From: Conexibacter sp. S30A1
GTDB lineage: Bacteria > Actinomycetota > Thermoleophilia > Solirubrobacterales > Solirubrobacteraceae
NCBI RefSeq assembly: GCF_023330665.1
Contig: NZ_CP097127.1
Coordinates: forward strand, 2,480,001-2,544,000
DNA: 64,000 nucleotides
Direction of reading: 5' to 3'
The notes below the pieces were generated by a model. That model saw only the letters and a program-made list of their open reading frames with translations. It searched no databases and was not told the origin of the DNA. Shown piece by piece: positions 14,862-18,473 of the stretch (the stretch's first letter is position 1; each line of letters opens with the position of its first letter). The position numbers and the translations under genes were made by a program.

Positions 14862-15446
14862 GTGATCGAGTCGCCAATACCCGACCAAGCCCGGTCCGCG
14901 TCGCTCGCTGAGCACCACCGACGCGGACCTGATGGTGGCCGGGTGCTCGTCTTGAATGCGACCTATGAGCCGATTCACGTCTGCACCGTGCGACGTGCCG
15001 TGGTCCTGCTGCTCAAGCAGAAGGCGGAGGTGGTGGAGGAGACCGGCAGGCTGCTGCACTCGGCCGCCGCCACGGTCACGCGGCCGGCCGTGATCCGGTT
15101 GGTCAGCTATGTGAAGATCCCGCGCGATCCGCACCGGCGCAAGATCACGCGCCGCGCGGTGTTCGCGCGTGATGACTGGACCTGTCAGTACTGCGGCTCG
15201 CGCACGCAGCTGACCGTGGACCACGTGGTCCCGCGCTCCAAGGGCGGCGGCTCGACCTGGGACAACATCGTCGCCGCCTGCGCTCCGTGCAACCGCCGCA
15301 AGGGCGACTCGCTGCCGCGCCAGGTCGGCATGACCCTGGCACGCTCGCCGCGCACACCCAGCCCGGAGGTGTTCGTGCAGGTCGCGAGCCCGACGATCCC
15401 GGCCACCTGGCGCCAGTACCTCGGGGTCGGGCCGCTCGCGGCCTGA
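14862..15446 (+). CDS. HNH endonuclease family protein
   Basis: About 194 residues from GTG 14862; TTG 14856 and GTG 14943 are alternatives. The N-terminal region, VLVLNATYEPIHVCTVRRAV, and the HNH core, CQYCGS, VDHVVPRSKGGGSTWDN and ACAPCNRRKGD, match the HNH endonuclease family ubiquitous in Actinobacteria. The histidine of DHV, the asparagine of WDN and four zinc-binding cysteines are present. The cellular role of this conserved stand-alone group is not established. A hairpin terminator and an unusual structured unit follow. Confidence 0.88.
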   Translation: MIESPIPDQARSASLAEHHRRGPDGGRVLVLNATYEPIHVCTVRRAVVLLLKQKAEVVEETGRLLHSAAATVTRPAVIRLVSYVKIPRDPHRRKITRRAVFARDDWTCQYCGSRTQLTVDHVVPRSKGGGSTWDNIVAACAPCNRRKGDSLPRQVGMTLARSPRTPSPEVFVQVASPTIPATWRQYLGVGPLAA

Positions 15447-15447
15447 A

Positions 15448-15473
15448 TGAGCGCCGCTTCCCAGCGGCGCTCA
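15448..15473 (+). terminator. Hairpin terminator after the HNH gene
   Basis: GAGCGCCGCT (15449-15458), loop TCCC, AGCGGCGCTC (15463-15472), with one extra T-A pair outside: an 11-bp perfect stem directly after the stop codon. Confidence 0.65.
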
Positions 15474-15551
15474 GGCTTCGCCCCCGCGACCGGCGAAAGG
15501 TGCCGCGCGGAGGTGTATCGTGTGCAGCACCAGAGAAAGGAGGTGGTCCAC

Positions 15552-15596
15552 CTGTCTGACAGTACTTGCGGGACCCTGGAGGTGTCCGGCCGCTAG
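15552..15596 (+). CDS. Possible 14-residue leader peptide
   Basis: CTG start 2 nt after a complete anti-16S Shine-Dalgarno match; encodes (M/L)SDSTCGTLEVSGR then TAG. The non-ATG start and very close spacing make translation uncertain. It is listed because the ribosome site is exceptionally long. Confidence 0.3.
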   Translation: MSDSTCGTLEVSGR

Positions 15597-15710
15597 GTCG
15601 GATGGCTGACCGCCCTGGGCGGAGTCCCACCGTGACACCACTGCACTGGCGCCGACCTGGTCCCTTCGGCGATGTTCGTGCCAGTCGCAGCGATGCCAGC
15701 CAGGCAGTTC

Positions 15711-15742
15711 TGAGGGGCGCCGTCTGACGACGGCGCCCCTCA
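15711..15742 (+). terminator. Strong hairpin terminator closing the small unit
   Basis: GAGGGGCGCCGTC (15712-15724), loop TGAC, GACGGCGCCCCTC (15729-15741), with a flanking T-A pair: a 14-bp perfect stem. Confidence 0.7.
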
Positions 15743-15807
15743 CTCGTATTGGACTGAGCGCCTCCGGCATCCACGCCGATGGCGACCACCGCGTCGTCGA
15801 CTGACCG

Positions 15808-15966
15808 ATGGGGATGGTCGCGATCCACTCGCCGGGCCTGATCGCCGCGGGCGAGGTCGTCTCTACCGTGCACCCGCGCGACGGCATAACCGACGCCGAG
15901 TGCGAGCGTGACGCCGGACTGGCGCGTGAAGATCGCAACCGGCTGCGGACGATCCTCGACGGCTGA
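15808..15966 (+). CDS. Possible small protein, 52 residues
   Basis: ATG at 15808 to TGA at 15964-15966. The product, beginning MGMVAIHSPGLIAAGEVV and ending RNRLRTILDG, is mildly acidic and has plausible amino acid composition, but there is no Shine-Dalgarno site. The same frame stays open upstream to a stop just before the ATG, so it could be the tail of a decayed larger gene. It ends 11 nt before the convergent gyrA stop. I do not recognise it. Confidence 0.25.
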   Translation: MGMVAIHSPGLIAAGEVVSTVHPRDGITDAECERDAGLAREDRNRLRTILDG

Positions 15967-15977
15967 CCGCCGGACGC

Positions 15978-18473
<2,496 letters not shown>

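Follow-up and report, generated by a model that had tools for sequence, protein, structure and literature searches.

The intergenic space between an HNH gene and gyrA in the window, which here means the whole 64,000-nucleotide stretch of DNA that was analysed, carries a complement of the 16S rRNA tail far longer than a very short reading frame should need, and the question is what purpose such a site could serve. The reading that we favour, with a probability of about 0.45, is a translated RNA that recruits 30S subunits and whose fold is read by the passage of the ribosome. The features to which the argument refers are as follows:

15516-15521, plus strand: TATCGT, probably the -10 element of the RNA's own promoter, a TAnnnT-like hexamer at equal upstream distance in many homologues.
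15529-15742, plus strand: predicted small RNA of about 214 nt; a held-out covariance model covers 15529-15673, and the 3' part is drawn from the hairpin at 15711-15742.
15534-15549, plus strand: complete anti-16S (Shine-Dalgarno, SD) site, AGAAAGGAGGTGGTCC, kept in homologues.
15552-15596, plus strand: 14-codon ORF, LSDSTCGTLEVSGR, with a putative CTG start and a TAG stop; frame kept in 163 elements.
15570-15575, plus strand: 5' strand of P1, GGGACC, within the ORF, covarying with the P3 loop.
15579-15584, plus strand: second anti-16S motif, GAGGTG, 15 nt before the stop, invariant in a first set of 66 loci.
15581-15589, plus strand: 5' strand of P2, GGTGTCCGG, within the ORF.
15630-15639, plus strand: 3' strand of P2, CCGTGACACC, from the joint P1/P2/P3 search and covariation.
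15650-15671, plus strand: hairpin P3, stem CGCCGA/TCGGCG (covariation reached in 0/500 shuffles; own versus swapped strands, p 4e-8).
15659-15664, plus strand: 3' strand of P1, GGTCCC, in the P3 loop (pseudoknot), from the same joint search and covariation.
15711-15742, plus strand: closing hairpin of 14 bp with loop TGAC, a likely terminator without a T run, read from the sequence, with a similar hairpin in relatives.

The transcript is predicted to start near 15528-15529. A simple sigma-70 scan did not call TATCGT at 15516-15521, and a simple consensus scan for terminators did not call the hairpin at 15711-15742. The initial annotation had closed the transcript with a 14-bp terminator; the hairpin is there, its arms (15711-15724/15729-15742) pairing over 14 bp, with no T run after it.

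The last 16 nt of the 16S rRNA are the complement of 15534-15549 with one G.U wobble. The site itself occurs once in the genome, and the one sequence that nearly equals it is antisense to the 3' end of the genome's own 16S rRNA. Likewise, AGAAAGGAGGTGRTCC has 2 copies in the 3.46 Mb genome, one at the 15534 site and one in the antisense of the 16S 3' end, compared to 0 for a reversed-pattern control, and this distribution identifies the site as the complement of the 16S tail. The 16-nt match claimed beforehand is thus borne out by the genome-wide count as well as by its conservation in homologues. As a separate observation, GGTCC is retained in the SD (window 15545-15549), although GATCC would be the perfect match to 16S.

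The element is by no means confined to the window. An exact 17-mer was found in 27/296 Actinomycetota genomes (reversed control 0), nearly all of these loci having the same downstream architecture, and BLAST placed the element in 34/41 genomes of relatives. A looser architecture pattern matched 140/396 genomes, compared to a handful of matches for the reversed control; a few of the 140 seem to be fortuitous, falling within other sequence. Moreover, a covariance model, R1, was built from 38 elements outside the window's order, RF02471 matches included; it finds the window element at 15529-15673 with 91.5 bits and an E-value of 7.4e-23, which is rough owing to a shortened calibration, and one copy each in 40/100 Actinomycetota genomes. 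Since the antisense of 16S itself scores 15.6 bits with R1, scores near that value reflect the SD alone. The covariance search across actinobacteria that the initial annotation had proposed has re-found the window with a held-out model, with both the SD and the stems conserved.

R1 also finds elements in metagenome-assembled genomes (MAGs) labelled Sumerlaeota, Deltaproteobacteria, Rokuibacteriota and Acidobacteriota, although such contig labels can be wrong. RF02471 reaches its cut-off outside Actinomycetota in two MAGs, one of Zixibacteria (L083) and one of Eisenbacteria (L163). Among 99 Acidobacteriota genomes scanned, ten pattern matches were obtained, nine of them convincing; the tenth, L222, seems to be a fortuitous match within a coding sequence and was rejected. 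A plasmid similarity search returned four weak matches only, with E-values of about 0.2-0.8. As judged by these searches, relatives with this layout are present across Actinomycetota and several other bacterial phyla. One further family (f18) has a GATCC-type site and a conserved AUA at start-codon spacing with no NTG start, and R1 gave no match in the members tested.

The position of the RNA gene between its neighbours bears on its autonomy. The gene that follows in the window, gyrA (15978-18473), converges on the RNA. Close relatives have the order HNH, RNA, convergent gyrA, and in most of the order the arrangement is gyrA, RNA, convergent HNH; within a single order, the RNA gene has thus flipped in the space between HNH and gyrA, which converge on each other (window 15429-15990; L030-L058). 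Outside the order the neighbours differ. An inversion between two convergent genes argues for a promoter of its own and against a functional tie to HNH. The suspicion that similar units occur behind the HNH gene in other genera was therefore not confirmed, as the link is only local, and HNH linkage as a functional unit was rejected. A leader-peptide attenuator of a neighbouring gene might also be considered, as the short ORF overlaps the RNA structure, a hairpin follows, and a same-strand gene comes next in a few outgroup loci (rpmE-like, arfB-like). However, gyrA is convergent here, and both the orientation and the neighbours of the RNA change, which makes this explanation very unlikely; for the window it was rejected, where no regulated same-strand downstream gene was found. 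Almost certainly, the locus encodes a conserved, single-copy, autonomous small RNA, as far as can be read from sequence, and the discrete small transcription unit first proposed is supported by its conservation, single copy and independence of neighbours. In Bryobacterales (L115, L118), the homologue was observed upstream of an rpmE-like gene (ribosomal protein L31).

The codons of the ORF at 15552-15596 are CTG TCT GAC AGT ACT TGC GGG ACC CTG GAG GTG TCC GGC CGC TAG, and the CTG at 15552 is taken as the putative start from spacing and frame conservation. In 163 distinct elements, selected without regard to start identity, the distance from the SD to GAGGTG takes all three phases (86/51/26). 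An NTG in frame with the stop nevertheless lies 6-12 nt after GGAGG in 145/163, with ATN or ACG in 11 more, compared to 10 and 3 NTG in the other two frames; the remaining 7/163 have, where inspected, an in-frame start at 13-14 nt. There are no in-frame stops, and the ORF spans 11-15 codons, with one of 19. The independent Acidobacteriota matches have in-frame starts too. As the in-frame start is kept despite the three phases, the ORF appears to be selected as an ORF; this comparison indicates that the 11-15-codon ORF is real and under selection for translation, in agreement with the 14-codon frame noted at the outset. Stops are TAG in 114, TGA in 35 and TAA in 14 elements. The weak starts (CTG in 38/163, plus ATC/ATA/ATT/ACG) and the mostly TAG stops seem unusual for high-GC genomes.

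The ORF carries, close to its end, the second anti-16S motif. In the first set of 66 loci, which were fetched without use of GAGGTG, the distance from the motif to the stop is exactly 15 nt in 63, and three loci (L020, L021, L022) have a different distance. Base pairing hardly accounts for the motif, as its A is unpaired in P2 (0/143 pair) and its G is paired in fewer than half, both being invariant. From GAGG to the last sense codon there are 8 nt, a spacing like that of a start codon. Read by hand, planctomycete and some same-class variants shift the ORF to a different frame with respect to GAGGTG and have their stop 13-14 nt past the motif. Because the frame differs and the stop stays that close, the motif-to-stop distance, not the peptide, appears to be kept. 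As for the planctomycete variant itself (L122, L124, L142, L187), it has a 12-codon ATG...TAA frame (MIVRGSIRRWVR in L122) with the stop 13 nt after GAGGTG, as well as a T-rich terminator; a weak match to CC2171 lies in the genome of L124.

A single-sequence fold is mildly stable (z -1.71; 11/200 shuffles as good), so that folding energy alone would not establish a structure, and comparative evidence establishes it instead. The hexamer of P1 starts nine bases before GAG, and pairs with GGUCCC in the loop of P3. Of the cells of alignment A1, 87.3% are paired, with 25 both-side changes compared to 6.8 in shuffles, a number reached in 0/500 of them, and slid controls give at most 53% paired. The compensations include AGGACC/GGUCCU, UCGACC/GGUCGA, GCGACC/GGUCGC, GUGACC/GGUCAC, GUGAUU/AAUCAC and GGGAUU/GAUCCC. 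P2 pairs GGUGNNNNN with NNNNCACC, with covariation reached in 0/500 shuffles and own versus swapped strands differing at p 2e-7. The joint search for P1/P2/P3 partners misassigns some sequences, and kinship can lift covariation above shuffles without structure, for which reason slid controls and distinct pair types were weighed too. P1, P2 and P3 all pass both, P3 less sharply (the +1 slide is close) because its register varies. Judging from this covariation, the 3' half of the ORF is folded as a pseudoknot, with P1 reaching into the P3 loop, plus P2, and the structured 3' part proposed earlier gains support from three covarying helices, each at 0/500. In L053, a segment around GGCGGAACGTTGTCCCGCCGAGCACCGACCC is repeated in the variable region of the RNA, downstream of the element.

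The same stretch bears on the switch suggested by the initial annotation, in which GGTCC of the SD (15545-15549) would pair with GGACC in the ORF (15571-15575) and mask the ribosome site. In 88.4% of cells the two could pair, and GGTCC, rather than the better 16S complement GATCC, is nearly constant in the SD of most lineages, a hint of a second partner. However, this pairing has compensatory changes in 0 cells (shuffles 500/500), while the covariation of GGACC is with the P3 loop. Some lineages have changed the ORF strand and the loop in concert and kept the SD constant (e.g. GUGAUU/AAUCAC), and there are lineages that combine a GATCC site with TGGACC. The SD:GGACC helix was accordingly rejected as a conserved pairing; since the SD is fixed by 16S, transient pairing would be compatible with the absent covariation, and we consider the switch improbable.

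Two further explanations concern the product. If the micropeptide were the functional product, the RNA structure would only tune its translation; the strongly conserved frame and a last residue R in 122/163 are in its favour. The peptide sequence varies widely, however, and its recurrent residues coincide with RNA constraints (GT/RT with the P1 strand, EV with GAGGUG). The starts are often weak (CTG 38, ATN 8, ACG 3 of 163), and the variants with a stop 13-14 nt after GAGGTG keep the spacing rather than the peptide, so that a functional peptide is unlikely. The RNA might otherwise be a pure sponge or store of 30S subunits, in which a strong SD titrates ribosomes and the ORF only ensures their release, a translation counterpart of the RNA-polymerase-binding 6S/Ms1 RNAs. 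Such a role would suit the wide conservation, the one dedicated transcription unit and an SD whose 16 nt go far beyond what is needed, yet by itself it leaves both the covarying pseudoknot and the fixed motif-to-stop spacing unexplained, and seems rather unlikely.

The 30S-recruiting translated RNA that we favour would work as follows. The 16-nt SD would capture 30S subunits, with the pseudoknot near the mRNA entrance of the initiating ribosome, and translation would then melt P1 and P2. At the stop codon, the ribosomal anti-SD would face GAGGUG at an initiation-like spacing (8 nt to the P-site codon), and this contact might retain a ribosome that is terminating, or has just done so, and prevent P2 from closing. 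The RNA would thus alternate between folded and ribosome-occupied states, as a sensor of ribosome occupancy or a 30S reservoir, with decay, target pairing, protein binding or sequestration itself as candidate outputs. Capture, melting of the fold, retention of the ribosome at the stop, and a role in sensing or buffering have, in our estimate, slightly less than even odds, and we infer the capture and termination-holding steps from the geometry alone. A reservoir would need RNA abundance near that of ribosomes. No target or ligand of the RNA was found in this analysis.

More broadly, the element might belong to a multi-phylum class of translated regulatory RNAs that read ribosome availability with the ribosome itself as ligand, by full-length 5' pairing to the 16S tail, a mini-ORF that supplies one half of a pseudoknot with its codons, and another anti-16S site placed to catch the ribosome at its own stop; this generalization is somewhat doubtful. 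In any case, a catalogued and unexplained actinobacterial sRNA is given a ribosome-directed anatomy common to Acidobacteriota, Zixibacteria, Sumerlaeota and other phyla. Were the ribosome its ligand, the RNA would let bacteria, mycobacteria and streptomycetes among them, sense or buffer their translation capacity directly. Mutants that are directly testable follow from the positions of the helices, the start codons and the motif spacing.

Among known families, Rfam at gathering score reports only a tRNA over the window. RF02471 (Ms_IGR-5), an actinobacterial sRNA of Mycobacterium smegmatis, scores 17.6 bits on the window copy compared to a gathering score of 45. Its matches coincide with 17-mer loci in five genomes (G006, G021, G032, G017, G014), and R1, which includes RF02471 matches, finds the window (E 7e-23), linking the two through intermediate sequences. 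With a score below 45, the window RNA is, by these comparisons, a divergent homologue of Ms_IGR-5 and not a member by the Rfam criterion. Both share the 5' SD, GGAC, GAGGUG, stop, CACC strand and GUCC loop. Rfam describes a plain sRNA and models no pseudoknot; in its structure line some of the SD region is base-paired, a pairing for which the comparison here gives no support. New here are the evidence that the ORF is real, the second anti-16S motif before the stop and the covarying pseudoknot in the 3' half of the ORF. Ribosome footprints have been reported on the Ms_IGR-5 homologues of M. abscessus and M. smegmatis, and on many known ncRNAs as well (PMC4974804); homologues are expressed in S. 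lividans (PMC8079986), S. avermitilis (PMC8780764) and M. smegmatis (PMC10454040).

CC2171 (RF01867), a Caulobacter sRNA with GAAAGGAGGUGAUCC at its 5' end, scores 25.3 bits on the window against a gathering score of 75, and its likeness to the window RNA appears to lie mainly in the SD; on the CC2171-like loci L097 and L164, R1 matches over 42 nt only. These two Rhodobacteraceae records (L097:114-320 and L164) have a CC2171-like RNA with a 16-nt anti-16S site and a GTG-started short frame, just upstream of a gene that resembles arfB (GPGGQNVNK motif), the gene of a ribosome-rescue factor. Literature searches on the names, the motif sequences and the concept turned up no functional study of either Ms_IGR-5 or CC2171.

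Dual-function sRNAs, such as SgrS, are likewise small stand-alone RNAs with a short ORF. Unlike them, the window RNA has an ORF that forms half of the fold, a full-length SD and a second anti-16S motif before the stop. Mechanistically, the closest parallel backed by data is the rpsO pseudoknot, which is bound on the 30S subunit (PMC3858243). That pseudoknot occupies the ribosome binding site of a gene for a protein, and its ligand is S15, whereas the pseudoknot of the window RNA spans part of a 14-codon ORF and sequence beyond it, with no protein gene following. As a working analogy, in both cases an engaged SD would have nearby a pseudoknot with coding sequence that must melt for translation, and the P1 covariation (0/500) indicates that the window RNA has such a pseudoknot near its ribosome site.
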